From contig NZ_NADJ01000013.1 in the NCBI RefSeq assembly GCF_002196705.1, positions 85,622-149,621 on the forward strand: a stretch of 64,000 nt of DNA, read 5' to 3'. Below are positions 4,058-19,347 of this stretch, piece by piece; positions within the stretch are counted from its first letter, which is position 1; the number at the start of each line of letters is the position of its first letter. The position numbers and the translations under genes are program-made. The notes below the pieces were generated by a model. That model made no database searches, was not told the DNA's origin, and was given only the letters and a program-made list of their open reading frames with translations. Source of the DNA: Desulfosporosinus sp. FKB (GTDB lineage: Bacteria; Bacillota; Desulfitobacteriia; Desulfitobacteriales; Desulfitobacteriaceae).

Positions 4058-4098
4058 TCCTACGTCCGGAATAACCCGGGCGTAGGATATTTTTTTGT
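4058..4098 (+). terminator. Intrinsic terminator
   Basis: TCCTACGTCCGG (4058-4069) pairs with CCGGGCGTAGGA (4076-4087, one mismatch) and is followed by seven Ts. It ends the AraC transcript and stands immediately before a serine-recombinase fragment; a comparable hairpin stands in the same place before the related fragment at 55722. Confidence 0.8.
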
Positions 4099-4157
4099 TA
4101 TCAATATGTTCCCACAAGCCTCACCTTTTAAATTCAACCAGGAAGGAAAGGAGACAT

Positions 4158-4565
4158 ATGAAAAAGTTACGAACCATTGAAAAAGCACCAGTCTTTAATG
4201 AAACTCTCAAGAAGCTTAGAGTTTGCGCTTACGTCAGGGTCTCAACTAACCAAGCCGAGCAGCAAGAGAGTTTTTCAGCCCACGCCCACGTCCAACATCA
4301 CACTTCCTTTATAAATAACAATCCAAATTGGATATTTGCAGGTATCTATAGTGATAATGCCCTATCCGGTAAGAACGCAGCAAAACGATCAGAGTTTATG
4401 AGAATGGTTCAGGATACAGAGAATAATAAGTTTGATTTGATTATTACGAAGTCCATAAGTCGTTTCGCTAGGAATACTCAAGATTGTTTGGAAACCGTCC
4501 GTAAGCTTAAATCACTTGGGGTAGGAGTTCAATTTGAAAAAGAACAAATTAATACTCTTAGCTGA
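4158..4565 (+). pseudogene. Large serine recombinase, N-terminal catalytic fragment
   Basis: ATG at 4158 follows AAGGAAAGGAG. The roughly 135 residues contain the resolvase catalytic domain start: CAYVRVSTNQAEQQESF (nucleophile Ser in RVST), GIYSDNALSGKNAAKRSEF, DLIITKSISRFARNT. It stops at INTLS where relatives continue into INTLTAESELML, and nothing of the recombinase/zinc-ribbon/coiled-coil half follows. There is also a local duplication (AHAHVQHH). It is closely similar to the broken copy at 55722-57032. A remnant of a site-specific integration module. Confidence 0.85.
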
Positions 4566-4643
4566 CGATATTTTCTGAAATATACTCTTCCGCCAGCCAA
4601 GACCCCACCAGGCTCAAACGGCATTTTTTTTGTATCCTCAAGG

Positions 4644-4709
4644 CACATTGGCGTAACTTCAATGACATTCAATTCATCAACACCAATGCACTTTGGGGTT
4701 ACTTCATTG
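4644..4709 (+). repeat. Two copies of a 21-bp motif CAYNTTGGNGTWACTTCAWTG
   Basis: CACATTGGCGTAACTTCAAT at 4644 and CACTTTGGGGTTACTTCATT at 4689 are variants of one motif. Two more copies occur beside the other serine-recombinase wreck, at 57496-57517 and 58199-58220. Read on the minus strand they would encode NEVTP[KMT]C. Meaning unknown. Confidence 0.45.
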
Positions 4710-4712
4710 TAA

Positions 4713-4787
4713 GTTTTTACGGAAAATATGTTTTCGTGAACGCAGCACGTCGAGACGGTGGTAGTATGTAGAAAACAGACAGTCTGA
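4713..4787 (+). pseudogene. Possible C-terminal remnant of a 23S rRNA (uracil-5)-methyltransferase
   Basis: One frame reads VFTENMFS-stop-TQHVETVVVCRKQTV-stop. The HVETVV ending preceded by MF is characteristic of the C-terminus of RlmD/TrmA-type methyltransferases. Only about 24 codons survive and an opal codon interrupts them, so this is at most a scrap left by recombination. Confidence 0.35.
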
Positions 4788-5020
4788 AAATCGCTATTCT
4801 GCGGGTTGCAGGTCTTGTCAATATTCAGAATTGCATTAAAAACACACAATGTTTTCAGCCTACGTCCACGGAAACATGTCAATAGGTAAAACGGGCAAAA
4901 AAATGCCTAATAATGTGTCACAGTGTCAGGGGACCCTTGAGACTGAGAAATCAGGTTTGTGTAATTTATACCACTGAGAATTAGACATAAAGAGCCGGTT
5001 AAATATCTTAGGATTAGCAT

Positions 5021-5058
5021 AAAAAAAGTCAGATCATTGATTGATCTGGCTTTTTTAT
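5021..5058 (-). terminator. Bidirectional terminator downstream of the LysR gene
   Basis: GTCAGATCA (5028-5036) pairs with TGATCTGGC (5042-5050). Seven As precede and six Ts follow the stem, so it can stop transcription in both directions; the nearest gene served is the minus-strand LysR regulator. Confidence 0.8.
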
Positions 5059-5166
5059 TTTCTTCTGACGAATTTCAAGATCTTATCTGAAATGAAGGAC
5101 AGTTAAGGAATGCTAGATTGAATTCAATATACCAACAACGCCGACTTATTTAATATCTGAATTTAT

Positions 5167-6057
5167 TTATAACCGTAACATTTGTCGAGTCAATTCCAGA
5201 AAGGATTTCAAAGTCGGTGATATCCACTTGTCTTTGTGATATACCAATTGAGTGATAAGTCGGAATTCAGGACCTGCCCAGGGTATTTGAACTAATTTAC
5301 CGGTTTCAACTTCCTGTTTAACGGCGGTTTCCGGTAACAATGTAATACCAATGCCACTTATAGTAAATTGTTTTATAGCCTGAATACTATTGGCTCCCAT
5401 TTTATATTTTGGTTGTACACTCGCCTCAGCTAGGATGTTTTCAAGAATAATCCTATAAGTACATTCATCCTCCGTTAAAATTAGGCTTTCTCCTTGCAAG
5501 TCTTCAGGATAAATCTCTTCCTTGGCAGCTAAATGATGATCGGGTGAGACCAGTACAGTCATTAGCTCAGGTGTTAATTCTTCAACAATGAATTCCTGAG
5601 TGTTTAGTTTCCGGTCAATAATAAATGTAGCATCAAGAGCGTTGGTTCGTAAAAGTCGAAGATTTTCACTGCAAACGCCGAAATTCATAACGATTTCTAC
5701 TTCTGGATAGCGGTTGTGGTATTCCTCAAATACTTTTGGAATGCGAGTTATAGATAGTGACTCAACCGTACCAACAGTTAATGTCCCTCTGGGGACTGAT
5801 GACGTTTCAGATATAACATTTCTGGCCTCAGATACAAGCTTTAATATTTGTTCCGCATAAGGTATCAACTTTTCAGCCTCTTGTGTTAGTGTAATTCGCC
5901 TACCTAAACGCTCAAACAACTTTACTCCCAGCGATTCCTCCAATAACTTGATTTGGGTAGTAACGGATGACTGGGCATAGCCTAGGGTTTCGGCGGCTTG
6001 AGTAAAATTTTCTAATTTAGCAATAGTCAAGAAGGTTTTTAATTGCCGTATTTCCAT
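5167..6057 (-). CDS. LysR-family transcriptional regulator
   Basis: 296 residues, normal LysR length. Residues 1-60 are the winged HTH (MEIRQLKTFLTIAKLENFTQ, then AAETLGYAQSSVTTQIKLLE); residues 90-290 are the periplasmic-binding-protein-like effector domain (GTLTVGTVESLS, GIGITLLPETAV). GGAGG stands 6 bases before the ATG. It is divergent from dapA with 195 bases between the starts, the standard arrangement for a LysR protein controlling its neighbour. It probably responds to a metabolite of the DapA/DapF-like pathway (inference). Confidence 0.92.
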   Translation of the reverse strand: MEIRQLKTFLTIAKLENFTQAAETLGYAQSSVTTQIKLLEESLGVKLFERLGRRITLTQEAEKLIPYAEQILKLVSEARNVISETSSVPRGTLTVGTVESLSITRIPKVFEEYHNRYPEVEIVMNFGVCSENLRLLRTNALDATFIIDRKLNTQEFIVEELTPELMTVLVSPDHHLAAKEEIYPEDLQGESLILTEDECTYRIILENILAEASVQPKYKMGANSIQAIKQFTISGIGITLLPETAVKQEVETGKLVQIPWAGPEFRLITQLVYHKDKWISPTLKSFLELTRQMLRL

Positions 6058-6252: not shown

Positions 6253-7116
6253 ATGAAGGTTGAAGGAGTATTTGTCCCACTTGTAACACCTTTCAAAAAT
6301 GGCAAAATAGATTACAATTCGTTTAAAAGAATGATCGATTATTATATTAATAAAGGAGTAAGTGGCCTTATTCCATTAGCTACAACAGGAGAAATTCCAA
6401 CTATATCAGAGTATGAGTATGAGGAAATTATTGAAAAAACCATGGAATATAATAATAATCGTATTCCTGTTTATGTTGGATTAGGTGGAAATAATACAAG
6501 CAAAGCAATTAGCCAACTAAAATTGGTGGAAAAGAATAGGGTTAATGGAATTTTATCTGTATGTCCCTATTATAATAGGCCGAGCCAAAGAGGTATATTT
6601 GAACATTTTCGGAACATATCAGAAGCAACAAGTTTAGATATTATTATCTATAACGTACCATATAGAACTGGCAGTAATATTGCGAATGATACCGTTTATA
6701 AGTTGGCGGAGATTGAGAACATTGTAGCAATTAAGGATTCATGTGGAGATATAAGACAAACTAGTAATCTATTATTAAAGCCACCAGAAAACATTTCTAT
6801 TTTAACAGGTGAAGATGTATTCTATTATACGAGTTTAACCCTTGGGGGTAATGGTGGAATACTGGCCTCGGCACATCTGAATATTGAAGAATTTCTTGGT
6901 ATTTTTAATGCGATAAAAAACAATAACTATCAATTGGCATTAGCAAAATGGAAGAGTTTATTTAGGTTTATTCCTCTTTTATTTGAAGAACCAAACCCCA
7001 CACCGATTAAGTATTGTTTATTTAAATTAGGTATTATTGACTCTCCAGAAGTAAGATTACCGTTAACCGAAATTACATCACATTTAAAGGAATCACTCAA
7101 TAGAGTTTTGTTATGA
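6253..7116 (+). CDS. dapA: 4-hydroxy-tetrahydrodipicolinate synthase (DapA) or close relative
   Basis: 287 residues, a full (beta/alpha)8 barrel of the DapA/N-acetylneuraminate lyase family. Catalytic positions match E. coli DapA numbering exactly: Thr44-Thr45 (LATTGE), Tyr107, Tyr133 with Arg138 (YNVPYRTG) and the Schiff-base Lys161 (AIKDSCGD). It would condense pyruvate with aspartate semialdehyde in lysine/diaminopimelate synthesis; with this neighbourhood a related pyruvate aldol reaction is also possible. Start ATG with GGAGAGG upstream. Divergent from the LysR gene; followed by a strong terminator, so transcribed alone or with partial readthrough into the DapF-like gene. Confidence 0.88.
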   Translation: MKVEGVFVPLVTPFKNGKIDYNSFKRMIDYYINKGVSGLIPLATTGEIPTISEYEYEEIIEKTMEYNNNRIPVYVGLGGNNTSKAISQLKLVEKNRVNGILSVCPYYNRPSQRGIFEHFRNISEATSLDIIIYNVPYRTGSNIANDTVYKLAEIENIVAIKDSCGDIRQTSNLLLKPPENISILTGEDVFYYTSLTLGGNGGILASAHLNIEEFLGIFNAIKNNNYQLALAKWKSLFRFIPLLFEEPNPTPIKYCLFKLGIIDSPEVRLPLTEITSHLKESLNRVLL

Positions 7117-7210
7117 GTTAATGTCAGGACTAGCAGGAGGTCGCAGTAGGGTGAAACTTCCCTGTTTGTCTCGATCCAGGCAATACTATTATTATAACTT
7201 GATTGTTTAT

Positions 7211-7254
7211 ACACCCACCGAAGCGTTTTGGGCGTTTGCGGTGGGTATTTTTGT
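7211..7254 (+). terminator. Intrinsic terminator after dapA
   Basis: ACCCACCG (7213-7220) pairs with CGGTGGGT (7239-7246), extended inside by further pairs, and is followed by ATTTTTGTG. Confidence 0.8.
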
Positions 7255-7404
7255 GACACAATATGCAGGAAATAAAGGATAATGGTGGAATTTATAATAA
7301 GTCTCCGCGAACTCACTATCGCTAGCTTATTCTGTAAACTTCATCAAATGGTGAATTATCCCCTACGCATTTGTAGGAGATTGTGCTAATTGGAGGATTA
7401 TTAA

Positions 7405-7724
7405 ATGGATAAGCCTTTCTGCGAAAAACATACAGAGACGAAACTGTAACAATATTCGGTACTAAACCGAATAGAACAATTGAAGCTAAGATAAATACCA
7501 ATATTGGTGGCTTAAATATAATGCATATATTTACAAATAAAGTTCCTGCTTCTTATGATATTGCTCCATTTGTCAAGGGTCTAGCTGATGAAGGAGAGCT
7601 TGAATCAATGCATCTAGATTGGCAAATTATTAGTTCCACATCACATGTCTTTGAGGATGAGCATCCAGGTGTAGCCAAACATTTACATGCGTCGAATACA
7701 GTTGTAGCAAAGAAAAATGTTTAG
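7405..7724 (+). pseudogene. Unrecognised gene, probably frameshifted, upstream of the DapF-like gene
   Basis: ATG at 7405 has an excellent TTGGAGG 7 bases upstream but its frame stops after MDKPFCEKHTETKL. A one-base shift near codon 5 continues without stop as LRKTYRDETVTIFGTKPNRT..., then MHIFTNKVPASYDIAPFVKG through to HASNTVVAKKNV and a stop at 7724. The combined product would be about 106 residues and ends 14 bases before the DapF-like start, so the two form a transcription unit. I do not recognise the family. An alternative is that translation really starts at ATG 7521 (67 residues), but that has no ribosome site. Confidence 0.55.
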
Positions 7725-7738
7725 ACAAGGAGAAAACG

Positions 7739-8590
7739 ATGAAAGTAGATTATTACAAATACCATGCTTTGGGTAATGACTATATTGTAATTGACCCTAA
7801 TAAAACTAGGATTAATCTCACCGAAGAAAACATCAAACTAATTTGTCATCGTAATTTCGGAATAGGCTCTGACGGCATTTTATATGGACCATTCTTTGAG
7901 GGTGATAGCCTAAAACTCAGAATTCTGAATCCCGACGGTAGTGAGGCAGAGAAAAGTGGCAACGGAATCAGGATTTTCTCAAGGTATCTTTTTGATCAGG
8001 GCTATATTAAAACTAACTGTTTTTCTTTAGATACTTTAGGCGGGAAGGTTTTTGTTACCATCTTAGATGAGAAAGGAAAGTTAATCAAAGTTGATATGGG
8101 GACAGTTACCTTTCTGAGTGATACTATTCCAGTGGCAGGACAATCACGAGAAGTTATTGACGAAGTTATAGAAATAGAAAGTGTTCCGTTTAGAATCACA
8201 AGTCTTTCTATAGGAAATCCACACTGTGTGATTCCTATGGATATGATTTCGGAGGAATTAGCAAGAAAATTAGGTCCAGTTATTGAAAACCATCCAATGT
8301 TTCCAAATAGAATTAATACACAATTATTAAAGGTTATCGATCGAAAGAATATTAAAATTGAGATCTGGGAGCGAGGAGCGGGTTATACTTTGGCATCCGG
8401 GAGTAGTAGCTGTGCGGCAGCGAGTGCTGCATATAAACTAGGTTTAGTTGATAATGAGCTAAAGGTACACATGCCTGGTGGAATTATTGAAATCGAAATA
8501 AATTTGGATGGGCATGTTTATATGACTGGTTCAGTTTCGAGTGTCGCAAGTGGTACATTCTCAAATGAAATGTGGAAAAACATAGGATGA
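7739..8590 (+). CDS. DapF-like epimerase-fold protein lacking both catalytic cysteines
   Basis: 283 residues, the normal length of diaminopimelate epimerase, with both pseudo-symmetric domains: ALGNDYIVID at the start, GIGSDGIL, LNPDGSE, SLSIGNPHCVI, ERGAGYT, MPGG. The two catalytic Cys of DapF (Cys73 and Cys217 in E. coli) are serines here: Ser73 in AEKSGNGIR and Ser220 in LASGSSSC. The family's GAGET is GAGYT. Substrate-orienting Asn residues are kept. Two-base racemisation as in DapF is therefore doubtful; isomerase or dehydratase chemistry, as in other members of the superfamily with altered acid/base pairs, or altered substrate is more likely (inference). AAGGAG precedes the ATG; 14 bases after the preceding gene. 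Confidence 0.85.
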   Translation: MKVDYYKYHALGNDYIVIDPNKTRINLTEENIKLICHRNFGIGSDGILYGPFFEGDSLKLRILNPDGSEAEKSGNGIRIFSRYLFDQGYIKTNCFSLDTLGGKVFVTILDEKGKLIKVDMGTVTFLSDTIPVAGQSREVIDEVIEIESVPFRITSLSIGNPHCVIPMDMISEELARKLGPVIENHPMFPNRINTQLLKVIDRKNIKIEIWERGAGYTLASGSSSCAAASAAYKLGLVDNELKVHMPGGIIEIEINLDGHVYMTGSVSSVASGTFSNEMWKNIG

Positions 8591-9570: not shown

Positions 9571-9670
9571 GTATAAATCCCAGCCCCCAGTCAACCCACC
9601 GAACTTCTTCAATCCCGCAGGATGGGATGTGCTTACCTGGCGGATAAGGGTAAGTGTGGAGAGCGGAAGG
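9571..9670 (+). repeat. Cassette-type intergenic repeat, copy 2
   Basis: Left part ATAAATCCCAGCCCCCAGTC, central CCACCGAACTTCTTC and AATCCCGCAGGATGGGATG, then CTTACC paired with GGTAAG across GGCGGATAAG. The best-preserved example of the family. Directly upstream of the acetyltransferase pseudogene. Confidence 0.8.
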
Positions 9671-10995: not shown

Positions 10996-11115
10996 CCGCT
11001 ACCCTCAACTCCCAAATGCCCCATATCCCCTAGCCCTCAGTCAACCCCACCGAACTCCTTCAATCCCGTAGGATGGGATGTGGTTGCCTGGTGGATAGGG
11101 GGAGGTGTGGGATGG
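10996..11115 (+). repeat. Cassette-type intergenic repeat, copy 4
   Basis: CCGCTACCCTCAACTCCCAA, then CTAGCCCTCAGTCAACCCCA, CCGAACTCCTTC, AATCCCGTAGGATGGGATG, GCCTGGTGGATAGG and GGAGGTGTGGG. The outer CCCCACC can pair with GGTGTGGG. A short open frame at 10850-10942 before it has no support. Confidence 0.8.
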
Positions 11116-11214
11116 AGGAATACGGTATATTTGGAATTGATATTTTACTGTTTGACATAAAGTCGGGGTTATAAAAAGCTGCATCTTATATCGTTTCATT
11201 GGAGGCATATTTTG

Positions 11215-11481
11215 ATGGAACCAGCAAAATTTATCCGTAAGTGGGAAAGAAAACGTGCAAAAGGACCATTTAAACATATACTTCTATATTGTGTTGCAAT
11301 TCCGGTTGGAGGGCTATTTGGTGGATTAATAGGAACAGCACTTGGTCATGGAGATGTTCATAAGTTTCTTTCGAACTCATTATTTGGTGTTGCTATTCTT
11401 TTTATATGGGGATTAGGACTAGGTGTGTTTGATTGGAAGAGAAATGAAAAGAAGTATAAAATCTTGATTCGGCTTCCCTAA
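11215..11481 (+). CDS. Two-helix membrane protein (88 aa)
   Basis: ATG at 11215 with TTGGAGG upstream. The N-terminus is basic (KFIRKWERKRAKGPFKH), then two hydrophobic helices at about residues 25-45 (with GGLFGGLIG) and 57-75 (NSLFGVAILFIWGLGLGVFD), and a basic tail. A small integral membrane protein of unknown function. Single-gene unit between a repeat copy and a terminator hairpin. Confidence 0.6.
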   Translation: MEPAKFIRKWERKRAKGPFKHILLYCVAIPVGGLFGGLIGTALGHGDVHKFLSNSLFGVAILFIWGLGLGVFDWKRNEKKYKILIRLP

Positions 11482-11566
11482 AAAGTAGGCAAAAATCCCC
11501 ACCCACGAAAAACCAAATAATCTAAACGGCTTTGCGAATCCAGGGCGTGTTGCTCTGGATTTTTAC
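11482..11566 (+). repeat. Dispersed element with terminator (shared with 32455)
   Basis: AAAAATCCCCACC followed by AACCAAATAATCTAAACGGC and TTTGCG recurs nearly identically at 32461-32522. At 11537 AATCCAG pairs with CTGGATT in a hairpin followed by TTTT, so this copy ends in a terminator. The following 190 bases up to the next gene contain no recognised feature. Confidence 0.6.
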
Positions 11567-11759
11567 AATTTGTCGAGATAGAGTGGTATAATTAGGAAAA
11601 GAGAGCGGTTAGAATCGGCCCGGACGCCAATTCCGTTAGTTGGCAGACAGCTTAACGCGGTAATATTTTGTCCTGGAAAGCAGGGATAGTTATTTGGTCG
11701 GAAAGCTGGATGGGATACGTTGGATGGGTATAGGGGCTCAATATGAGGGAGGGAGAATA

Positions 11760-12095
11760 ATGGCTAAGTATGAAAAAACGATTACTGGTCAATTTGAGGA
11801 AGTGGTTAACCAGTTGCAGGAAGATATTGACAATAGTGGATTAACTATGAATTTAGTCGATGAGAGCAATTACATTTCTGGAAATACAAATATAGCCGTT
11901 CGGGTTTACGATAAATATTTTATGAGAAATGGAAACAGAGCGAGTTTAAGCCTCACCGTAGTGGGACATGGCGATAATATTTTTATTTCTGCGATTGGTG
12001 CTGGTGGAGGGAAAGGTGTTCTTTTTAACTTCAGTCTAGGTGCTGAAGAAGATATGGTGGGCATAGTGCAAGAGAGCATTAAACGTATGGAATAA
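11760..12095 (+). CDS. DUF6054-like hypothetical protein (111 aa)
   Basis: ATG at 11760 with GGGAGGGAG upstream; a longer reading from 11694 lacks this. The sequence MAKYEKTITGQFEEVV..., VRVYDKYFMRNGNRASLSLT, GHGDNIFISAIGAGGGKG resembles the small DUF6054 family of clostridia, a soluble alpha/beta protein of unknown role (recognition from memory, moderate confidence). No catalytic motif seen. Lies in the repeat-separated array. Confidence 0.65.
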   Translation: MAKYEKTITGQFEEVVNQLQEDIDNSGLTMNLVDESNYISGNTNIAVRVYDKYFMRNGNRASLSLTVVGHGDNIFISAIGAGGGKGVLFNFSLGAEEDMVGIVQESIKRME

Positions 12096-12153
12096 TTTCT
12101 TCTATATTTATAGAAGGCCCTTCTCAATTTAGTATCCTAGCCATTTACCCGTA

Positions 12154-12275
12154 CCAGCTAACCTCAACCCCAAATCCCCATAAACCCAGCCCGCAGTCAA
12201 CCCCACCGAACTCCTTCAATCCCGTAGGATGGGATGAGATTACTTGGCGGATGCCGGGGGAAGTGTGGGTTGGAT
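12154..12275 (+). repeat. Cassette-type intergenic repeat, copy 5
   Basis: CAGCTAACCTCAACCCCAAA, TAAACCCAGCCCGCAGTCAA, CCCACCGAACTCCTTC, AATCCCGTAGGATGGGATG, TTACTTGGCGGATG and GTGTGGGTTGG. CAACCCCAC at the left can pair with GTGTGGGTTG at the right end, giving a long-range stem. Confidence 0.8.
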
Positions 12276-12349
12276 AGCGGCGCTGAGTCCGAGAATGGGT
12301 CCCTTATATAGAGAGAGCGGTTGAGTTGAGACGGAGGAATTAAGTAAAA

Positions 12350-17274: not shown

Positions 17275-17496
17275 ATGGAACTGCAAAAGGTAAAACATGA
17301 GCTAAAAGTGGAGAAATGGCGCAAGCTTATCTATGAGTGTCGGAACAGCGGTCAAACGATTCGCACTTGGTGCAACGAGCACAATATCAGTCCTCAGACC
17401 TTTTATCGGTGGCAGCGTGTTGTTTGGGACGCAGGGACACAAAACCTTCTTGAAGGGTCAAAGCGGCAGCCGGTTATGATACAGGATGAGACAGCG
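17275..17496 (+). pseudogene. IS66 TnpA fragment
   Basis: ATG at 17275 after GCAGGAGAGG. About 74 residues: an HTH of the IS66 accessory protein type (KWRKLIYECRNSGQTIRTWC, NEHNISPQTFYRWQR). It breaks off at MIQDETA, where the sequence passes into the recombinase pair read backwards. Normal TnpA is about 110 residues. Confidence 0.8.
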
Positions 17497-18425
17497 GTGT
17501 CGACGAAATATTGTTTTGTCAGTCGGAGGTACTTTTCTGTTGATTCAATACCCTTGTGTCCTAGATAGGTACTAAGTATGGGAAGTGAGCAGTAAGGATC
17601 TATTCCTTTGCGAATCATCTGCTCCAAAGCATGGACACTGAAAGTGTGTCTTAGGTCATGTACGCGTGGGTACTTTCCATTACTTAACTGGGATATGCCG
17701 ACTTTCTTTTCTAGATTTCTAAACTGATTCCGGATGGTTGTTGGAGAGTATCTTTCATTGTGAAGCGCAGGGAAAAAATATGGATTTCCCGCTCTTATAA
17801 CCTTTGAATCATACCAGGATAAATACTGTCGTAATGATTCGGATACTGGAATCAAGCGGGATACATTATTTTTACCGTTCATAATGATAAGAACTCCATT
17901 ATCTAAATCGACGTGTTCACGCTTAAGGGCAAGGGCTTCGCTTACTCGTAATCCACATCCATAAAGCATACGGATTACCGCAGGATATATATAAGGGGTA
18001 TTTACAAACTTATTCTTGTTTGGCCCGATTGTATCAGCTTCCTGAAGAATTCTGCTGATTTCCTCATAGGTAAAAATATACGGAACAAAGTCTTCGGTAG
18101 TTTTAACCAGTTCCTTTGGGTAAACATAAGCTGGAATGCCTCTAAGGTTTAAGAAAAGGGCAAACTGTCTTATATGAGATTGTCTTGCATGAAGGCTCCG
18201 GACACTTTCAGAGCCCCTTTTCGATGCATAAGTATTAACCAGTTCTGGCGGTAAAGCCAGTATAGGATCGGATTTTGAATTAGCGTATATAAAATTAAGC
18301 ATGCTGTTTACCTTGGTCTGTTCGATATACGAATACTTAAATCCGAGGGAATGTTTATACTCTATGTAATCCATGGCAACGTCACGGTAAGTCTCGGGGA
18401 AATCGAAGGTTTCATACTGTTTCAT
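17403..18425 (-). CDS. Tyrosine recombinase (second of a pair), C-terminus altered
   Basis: 340 residues. N-terminal SAM-like core-binding domain (RDVAMDYIEYKHSLGFKYSY) and C-terminal catalytic domain with GCGLRVSEALAL (Arg I), HDLRHTFSVHAL (His-x-x-Arg) and STYLGHKGIESTEKYLRL (His and nucleophilic Tyr). The last 28 residues or so are read from the antisense of the IS66 tnpA fragment, so the natural C-terminus was cut when the junction formed; the catalytic Tyr is just retained. ATG overlaps the end of the upstream recombinase by 14 bases. Resembles the middle member (RitB-like) of recombinase-in-trio elements; no third member follows. Confidence 0.85.
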   Translation of the reverse strand: MKQYETFDFPETYRDVAMDYIEYKHSLGFKYSYIEQTKVNSMLNFIYANSKSDPILALPPELVNTYASKRGSESVRSLHARQSHIRQFALFLNLRGIPAYVYPKELVKTTEDFVPYIFTYEEISRILQEADTIGPNKNKFVNTPYIYPAVIRMLYGCGLRVSEALALKREHVDLDNGVLIIMNGKNNVSRLIPVSESLRQYLSWYDSKVIRAGNPYFFPALHNERYSPTTIRNQFRNLEKKVGISQLSNGKYPRVHDLRHTFSVHALEQMIRKGIDPYCSLPILSTYLGHKGIESTEKYLRLTKQYFVDTAVSSCIITGCRFDPSRRFCVPASQTTRCHR

Positions 18426-19347
18426 ATGGCACCTCCAAAGCTAATTCTCTAAGGGCCTCAACATCAATATTAAGATAAATTCTAGTCGTATTGATGCTTG
18501 AATGTCCCAATACCTCCTTAATTACATGCATAGGGGTATTGTTATGGAGCATGTTGCTTGCTAGAGAATGCCGCATGGCATGTGGCCCATGTTTACGTTC
18601 CGATGTGTCAATGTTTGCCTTTCGGAAATATTTAGAAACTATATGGTGTATACAGGTATTAGTCAACGGCTTTTTGCCATTTTTTATACCGATAAAAATG
18701 TACTCTGAGTCACTTTTCGGACGCCCATTTTTTAGATAATCGATCAATGAATACTTGATATTTTCCAGTAAAGGAAGCTGATTAAAGATTTTAGTCTTAT
18801 ACTGAACAAACTCAATCGTATCATGTACCCAATGGATATCCGACATTTTCAGCCGGATGATGTCTCCGGAGCGCATACCAAGTTCTGCAGCTAGCAGTAG
18901 TACGACAAAGTCCCTTTTTCCATAAGGCGTACCCCGGTCTATGGCAGAGATGATTCGCCTGACTTCCTCAATAGAATAAAAGGAAAGTATACGTTCCCGT
19001 TTGTTTGTAAATATAACCGGGAAAATCTCATATCCCGAAAACGGGATGAGGTTTCCGAGGTTCAGGTAATTAAAAAAGTGGCGCAAGATAAATGTGCGTC
19101 CACTGATGGTAGAAGAGGATAAATTAGCAACTGAAGATAAATAGCCAGTCACATTTTTCTGTAGGCAATGATGAAAATCCTTTACGTTGTTGTCACCAAG
19201 ATAATTCAAAAAAGAAGTAATCGTTAATCTTTTTGATGAAATTGTCAGTGGTGACAGGTTGCTGAATTCTTCTAGGTTCAAGTATTCTTCCAAGATATCT
19301 AAATAAACGTCATACCTAAGAAGAATCTTCCCAGTTTTGTTATGCAT
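18412..19347 (-). CDS. Tyrosine recombinase (first of a pair)
   Basis: 311 residues, intact. Catalytic residues: AELGMRSGDIIRLK (Arg I), KHGPHAMRHSLASNML (His-x-x-Arg), EVLGHSSINTTRIYLNI (His, Tyr). Similar in layout to the first recombinase of the RIT-like element at 19875. GGAGGTGCATCAAG precedes the ATG. Upstream there is an inverted repeat ATAACAT/ATGTTAT (19372-19390) and an outer pair TATGTTGAG (19389) / CTCAACATA (19481), probably the element's end. Expected to perform site-specific insertion or excision of its element. Confidence 0.88.
   Translation of the reverse strand: MHNKTGKILLRYDVYLDILEEYLNLEEFSNLSPLTISSKRLTITSFLNYLGDNNVKDFHHCLQKNVTGYLSSVANLSSSTISGRTFILRHFFNYLNLGNLIPFSGYEIFPVIFTNKRERILSFYSIEEVRRIISAIDRGTPYGKRDFVVLLLAAELGMRSGDIIRLKMSDIHWVHDTIEFVQYKTKIFNQLPLLENIKYSLIDYLKNGRPKSDSEYIFIGIKNGKKPLTNTCIHHIVSKYFRKANIDTSERKHGPHAMRHSLASNMLHNNTPMHVIKEVLGHSSINTTRIYLNIDVEALRELALEVPYETV

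Follow-up and report, generated by a model that had tools for sequence, protein, structure and literature searches.

The gene at 7739-8590 of the window encodes a DapF-family protein in which both catalytic cysteines are replaced by serine. The window is the whole stretch of DNA that was analyzed, 64,000 nucleotides from Desulfosporosinus sp. FKB. The protein belongs to a real and conserved Ser/Ser DapF subfamily that has apparently been overlooked so far. Judged from the sequences compared, this subfamily is one well-supported, old, and widespread branch of DapF. Its members are probably working LL-/meso-DAP epimerases that would use a Ser(Lys)/Ser pair for catalysis.

The Ser/Ser gene in the window and in Desulfosporosinus

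The gene and its surroundings consist of the following features, given with the basis of each assignment.

5167..6057, minus strand: divergent LysR-type regulator (open reading frame, profile matches)
6253..7116, plus strand: dapA, 287 aa, canonical-looking, with motifs TTGE, PYYN, YNVP, and IKDS (TIGR00674)
7213..7246, plus strand: terminator-like hairpin, then AUUUUUGU, between dapA and the dapF-like gene (folding)
7413..7724, plus strand: orphan open frame that stops 14 bases upstream of the dapF-like start
7739..8590, plus strand: Ser/Ser DapF-family gene, 283 aa (open reading frame, DapF profiles, alignment, predicted fold)
7952..7957, plus strand: Lys72-Ser73, with Ser at the first catalytic Cys position (alignment)
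8396..8398, plus strand: Ser220, at the second catalytic Cys position (alignment)

In Cys/Cys DapF, one cysteine acts as a thiolate base and the other as a thiol acid. The window protein has Ser/Ser where the definition of DapF calls for two catalytic cysteines. Ser73 (codon AGT, 7955-7957) lies in the motif NPDGSEAEKSGNG, and Ser220 (codon TCC, 8396-8398) lies within ERGAGYTLASG, where Tyr216 also sits; GNPHC is present too. The first-pass annotation had described a DapF homologue with Ser73, Ser220, and GAGYT, and the complete 283-aa reading frame agrees with it. The protein scored 239.7 bits against the DapF profile TIGR00652 (cut-off 114.65) and 192.1 bits against PF01678 (cut-off 34.7), and all six other Ser/Ser members scanned also exceeded the TIGR00652 cut-off. 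It stayed below the cut-off for the proline racemase superfamily (PF05544; 17.9 bits, cut-off 27) and far below that for the bifunctional DapF/glutamate racemase (NF038284; 53.8 bits, cut-off 350). An AlphaFold2 model made from 41 aligned members (mean pLDDT 94.2) predicts the two-domain DapF fold. The nearest PDB chain to the model was Anabaena DapF (9mro_A, 38% identity, TM 0.88), and H. influenzae DapF came next, its C73S mutant among the matches. The profile scores and the predicted fold place the window protein in the DapF family, minus the two-cysteine feature.

The canonical DapA and the divergent LysR gene noted in the first pass are both present. DapA scored 261.8 bits against TIGR00674 (cut-off 206.15), and its four motifs are those we take to hold the catalytic residues. 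A gap of 622 bp separates dapA from the Ser/Ser dapF, and the terminator-like hairpin lies inside it. The hairpin was missed by a simple terminator scan and picked up by folding (-23.1 kcal/mol for 7200-7262, z -3.47). Co-transcription of the two genes is doubtful because of this gap and hairpin. The orphan frame had been read as a frameshifted 106-residue protein. The open frame itself is there, but its earliest ATG, GTG, or TTG is at position 7521, it has no Pfam match, and no relative of it was found in the compared loci. It is probably a gene remnant.

Other parts of the window were also noted. An intergenic repeat starting CCCACCGAACT(T/C)CTTCAATCCCG occurs in at least three copies, at 9595, 11046, and 12202. 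Going by its translation, a short frame at 4095-4565 resembles a serine recombinase N-terminal region. The frames at 17403-18425 and 18412-19347, judged in the same way, resemble tyrosine recombinases. These recombinase-like frames suggest a mobile or decayed region.

The Ser/Ser gene is patchily distributed in the genus. Among 29 Desulfosporosinus genomes (the source genome and 28 others, some of them incomplete assemblies), a Ser/Ser-type copy was intact in 7, cut by a contig edge in 1, and broken or fragmentary in 3 (G007, G016, and G025), and 18 gave no match. The Ser residues were read in seven loci of the genus besides the window; the contig-edge copy shows the second Ser only. The genus copies sit in differing surroundings, and a dapA match was absent from all ten other loci of the genus that were examined for a Ser/Ser copy or remnant. 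A comparison of the window gene with the copy at L011 gave dN 0.109 and dS 1.447, and L011 compared with L013 gave dN 0.050 and dS 0.371; a dS of ~1.4 is near saturation, and window-L014 and all pairs with L015 or L016 are without a dN/dS value. The low dN/dS together with the patchy occurrence indicates that the gene is selected where it is intact, yet dispensable in the genus. The same phylum was sampled evenly with 149 genomes, of which 118 gave a DapF match. Identity exceeded 43% in just two cases, the gene itself (100%) and a fragment at a contig end in G286 (69%). Residue reading covered that fragment, which shows the first Ser motif, and a minority of the other matches. A plasmid search returned 113 records, every one below 60% identity.

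The first-pass annotation had called for a search for a second, Cys/Cys DapF in the genome, and an ordinary one was found on contig C35. The genome also has other DHDPS-family genes. The Ser/Ser DapF is therefore an accessory copy in this Desulfosporosinus, given the Cys/Cys DapF elsewhere, its patchy and sometimes broken state in the genus, and the hairpin between dapA and the gene.

A separate branch of the DapF family

Relatives were sought in genome contigs with patterns that left out the Ser positions, and the best 80 of 536 were taken. Ser/Ser was read in all 80 of them. It was also read in 59 of 59 loci from the genome comparisons described below, a set that overlaps the best 80, so the double serine is no chance event. 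A set of 175 different DapF-family sequences, including that of the window, was obtained from 209 loci with a match by removing sequences shorter than 220 residues and identical ones. Its active-site pair was Ser/Ser in 117 sequences, Cys/Cys in 58, and mixed in none. Among the matches read, those with at least 48% identity to the window protein were Ser/Ser and those with 43% or less were Cys/Cys. The first pass had held the double change to be coordinated and unlikely to be decay, which the lack of mixed pairs and the purifying selection bear out. It had also proposed that an absence of Ser/Ser homologues elsewhere would point to a dead gene; 117 such sequences were found.

The two serines come with other changes. 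The Lys before the first Ser (Lys72) was present in 117 of 117 Ser/Ser sequences and in 0 of 58 Cys/Cys sequences. Q195, I209, G50, and P51 also separated the two groups fully, and Y216 (116), S223 (116), and I79 (115) did so nearly fully. E208 is a further coordinated change in the Ser/Ser set, alongside Q195, Y216, S223, and G50-P51. Other positions were kept: N13, N64, N160, E211, R212, G74, and G221 in all 117 Ser/Ser sequences, N193 in 116, and N75 in 115. We take these to be the DAP-binding residues, identified after H. influenzae DapF.

The codons point to selection on the serines. Ser73 is encoded by AGC (65), AGT (28), TCC (19), TCG (4), and TCA (1), and Ser220 by TCC (45), TCG (26), TCA (19), TCT (15), and AGC (12). 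In other words, 112 of the 117 codons at Ser73 and 72 of the 117 at Ser220 are a single base from Cys. Cys was seen in none, and its absence although one base away suggests selection. Five diagnostic columns were masked for a quick tree, whose 110 rows comprised 52 Ser/Ser and 58 Cys/Cys sequences. A single long branch with SH-aLRT 100 split off every Ser/Ser sequence from the rest, with one change. No description of a natural Ser/Ser DapF was found among the open-licence papers listed for DapF and its active-site residues.

The branch extends far beyond Desulfosporosinus. Labels among the best 80 of 536 relatives, many of which are metagenome bins, include Bacillota, Verrucomicrobia, Cyanobacteria, Spirochaetes, Planctomycetes (Sedimentisphaerales), Nitrospira, Chloroflexi (Ktedonobacter), Chlamydiae, Deltaproteobacteria, Poribacteria, WOR-3, and KSB1. 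Fifty of these 80 loci were used to compare 50 genomes, 23 of which had another DapF relative and 27 Ser/Ser only. The two-copy genomes include Bacillota and Cyanobacteria. Second copies were read for 19 of these 23 genomes, and all were Cys/Cys. The 27 Ser/Ser-only genomes, many of them metagenome bins, were 19 Verrucomicrobia and 8 others. Two single cases were observed in addition. The WOR-3 genome G068 has two Ser/Ser dapF genes (L065 8001-8840 and L075 8001-8804) and no other DapF match. In a Verrucomicrobia assembly, a Ser/Ser dapF that was the sole DapF found there contains an in-frame TAG (L127 8001-8843).

Which genes accompany the Ser/Ser dapF? Neighbors were searched by tblastn, using a single reference for each gene and flanks that were often short, and by profile scans for ten proteins. 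DAP/lysine genes adjoined the Ser/Ser dapF in 8 of the best 80 of 536 relatives. In the other 72 loci, many with short flanks, tblastn found no adjoining DAP/lysine gene: a lysA-like gene lay 6 kb away in L083, an opposite-strand dapA lay at a distance of 1.6 kb in L073, and the remaining 70 had none. L072 and L077 have lysA, Ser/Ser dapF, and LL-DAP aminotransferase in a row. Their lysA products scored 383 and 364.3 bits (cut-off 297.9), and their LL-DAP aminotransferases scored 663.5 and 620.3 bits (NF004937, cut-off 585). L076 has lysA (463.8 bits), Ser/Ser dapF, and a LysR gene. The order is Ser/Ser dapF, dapA, dapB in L094, L120, L121, and L130, and dapB, dapA, Ser/Ser dapF in L093. The genome of L072 holds two further Cys/Cys DapF genes and that of L077 one more match to DapF, which contains an in-frame stop, so the Ser/Ser gene is not the sole candidate epimerase in either.

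The dapA next to the Ser/Ser dapF in the window fits this theme of DAP/lysine neighbors. The first pass had proposed a pathway devoted to making or using an unusual amino acid. That proposal is not favored because the telling neighbors, where present, are ordinary DAP/lysine genes, because the link to dapA in the window is weakened by the gap, the hairpin, and the lack of a dapA match at the ten other loci of the genus, and because the Ser/Ser protein is the only DapF over cut-off in nearly all Verrucomicrobiota carriers (58 of 59). The most likely setting is ordinary DAP/lysine synthesis with an unusual active site.

The L083 locus, from a Desulfosporosinus sp. BRH_c37 bin, has a Ser/Ser dapF 57% identical to that of the window (4244-5077) and its lysA-like gene at 11065-12348, ~6 kb off. 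Apparent transporter and peptidase genes, read from translations, lie between the two, and the region may be a separate gene cluster.

DapF and the DAP pathway in Verrucomicrobiota

The phylum of Verrucomicrobia bacterium Opi.OSU.00C (G097, locus L111) was sampled as 144 genomes. A DapF match was found in 135, and in 41 it had at least 48% identity to the window protein. Fourteen of the other 94 matches were read and all were Cys/Cys. The 41 genomes and 18 further Verrucomicrobia made a set of 59, chosen for carrying the Ser/Ser gene; the two serines were read in every one. In 58 of the 59, the Ser/Ser protein was the only DapF over the PF01678 cut-off. The exception, G176, has a second member of the distant Cys/Cys type on a long branch (L196, G176:C156:15500-18300). 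Sub-cut-off PF01678 matches read as proline-racemase-like in G210 and G102, and as nothing clear in G167. A hidden second DapF in these genomes was rejected, since PF01678 gave only the one extra match over cut-off.

The profile cut-off for DapL (TIGR03542) was exceeded in 32 of the 59 genomes, that for LysA (TIGR01048) in 36, and that for Ddh (TIGR01921) in 3, with sub-cut-off Ddh scores of 20-24 bits in six others. A Ddh bypass was rejected on this low count. For comparison, 14 named control genomes gave matches over cut-off for DapF in 9, DapL in 2, Ddh in 2, and LysA in 11. Thirty of the 59 genomes combine DapL, no Ddh over cut-off, and Ser/Ser as the only DapF over cut-off, and LysA is over cut-off in 22 of these 30. 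The dapF of G106, a genome among these 22, contains an in-frame stop. In G196, G223, and G229, the dapF, DapL, and LysA matches all lie on one several-megabase contig, which makes a fragmented assembly an unlikely excuse there. The 27 genomes without DapL (TIGR03542) over cut-off had no DapD over cut-off either (two scored 176-178 bits), and an acyl pathway via DapD was rejected.

Published observations on the family Opitutaceae touch on the same pathway. DAP is reported from Opitutus terrae and Lacunisphaera, and the Lacunisphaera strain with a sequenced genome is listed as having both DapL and DapF (PMC5303756). The same source reports that no DL-DAP was seen by thin-layer chromatography, which its authors blamed on low amounts. 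The DapF of these organisms would be of the Ser/Ser type, going by the Opitutaceae sequences that were read. It is about an even call that the whole subfamily epimerizes DAP without a cofactor or any active-site cysteine, by a Lys-assisted Ser/Ser pair, and is the housekeeping DapF for a considerable share of Verrucomicrobiota, with carriers making up 41 of the 144 sampled genomes.

Candidate reactions and their meaning

How could serines replace the two cysteines? The epimerase reading, which we consider the probable one, draws on strict Ser/Ser, the invariant Lys, the kept DAP-binding residues, the predicted fold, purifying selection, and the DAP/lysine neighbors. In this reading, the Ser73/Ser220 pair, assisted by Lys, would do the acid-base chemistry of an LL-/meso-DAP epimerase. 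Lys72 could lower the pKa of Ser73 or itself be the base. Its role is conjectural because, in Cys/Cys DapF, the loop leading to the first Cys wraps around the substrate and its residues are said to make no direct hydrogen bond with the ligand (PMC12039745). In this Desulfosporosinus, the protein would be an accessory epimerase acquired sideways on top of the Cys/Cys DapF, and it perhaps works with the neighboring DapA under LysR control.

Comparisons with known systems bear on this reading. Ser/Ser proteins are like Cys/Cys DapF in family scores, predicted fold, DAP-binding residues, and the pathway neighbors of some relatives, but unlike it in the Lys before the first Ser, Q195, Y216, S223, I79, the G50-P51 insertion, and their separate branch. 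The H. influenzae DapF mutants C73S and C217S (PDB 2Q9H and 2Q9J) have equal substitutions at the same positions, but singly, and they are man-made mutants of a Cys/Cys enzyme that lacks Lys72 and the other changes. A natural catalytic Ser is described in the wider fold for a Ser/Cys 4-hydroxyproline epimerase (PMC4113996). That enzyme shares the broad two-domain fold, but it keeps one Cys, acts on proline compounds, and belongs to another sequence family. The chlamydial DapF/glutamate racemase is also a DapF homologue from the wider PVC group; unlike the window protein, it is described as keeping both Cys (PMC5885031), and the window protein is under the cut-off of its model, NF038284.

One alternative is that the Ser/Ser protein is an isomerase or lyase that performs a different reaction on DAP or a close analogue. 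A precedent is the Ser/Thr trans-3-hydroxyproline dehydratase of the proline racemase superfamily, described as dehydrating its substrate with no epimerization (PMC4113996). The further coordinated changes (Q195, Y216, S223, E208, and G50-P51) and the Cys/Cys DapF in the window genome are also consistent with it. However, some relatives are flanked by lysA and LL-DAP aminotransferase or lie beside dapA-dapB, the DAP-binding residues are kept, and the Ser/Ser protein stands alone over the DapF cut-off in almost all Verrucomicrobiota carriers. We regard a different reaction as unlikely.

Somewhat less likely again is a non-catalytic, DAP-binding or regulatory protein, with meso-DAP made by another racemase, which could do the epimerase job. 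Cys-to-Ser mutants of the related PddB racemase are reported to retain <0.1% activity, and the same source attributes similar residual activity to such changes in M. tuberculosis DapF (PMC8225329); Cys-to-Ser mutations are likewise said to hinder catalysis in this enzyme class (PMC11602996). The mutant data also speak against the epimerase reading. Furthermore, E. coli DapF is reported to have a second, regulatory role on RppH (PMC4227774). Yet a protein that only binds DAP would fit the exact conservation of Ser/Ser and Lys72 less well than a catalyst would, and in genomes with DapL and LysA the protein is the only DapF over cut-off. A dead or dying window gene is very improbable and was rejected: the broken or fragmentary copies in three genomes of the genus and the apparent remnant ahead of the gene would agree with it, but the reading frame is intact, dN/dS is low against same-genus copies, Ser/Ser is strictly conserved, and the residues are identical to those of distant, sole-copy members.

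DapF is described as requiring a thiolate-thiol pair and has been called a drug target (PMC5885031, PMC12039745). Annotation models label the Ser/Ser branch as DapF and miss the loss of the cysteines. Should the Ser/Ser proteins be inactive, an unrecognized route to meso-DAP must operate in bacteria that have DapL and LysA but lack any other DapF over cut-off, unless they need no meso-DAP. If they are working epimerases, as we favor, two cysteines may not be a universal requirement for making this component of the cell wall. A much weaker acid would then suffice for proton transfer on DAP, and thiol-directed inhibitors might fail against Ser/Ser bacteria. How the weaker acid works might then be learned from residues such as Lys72.
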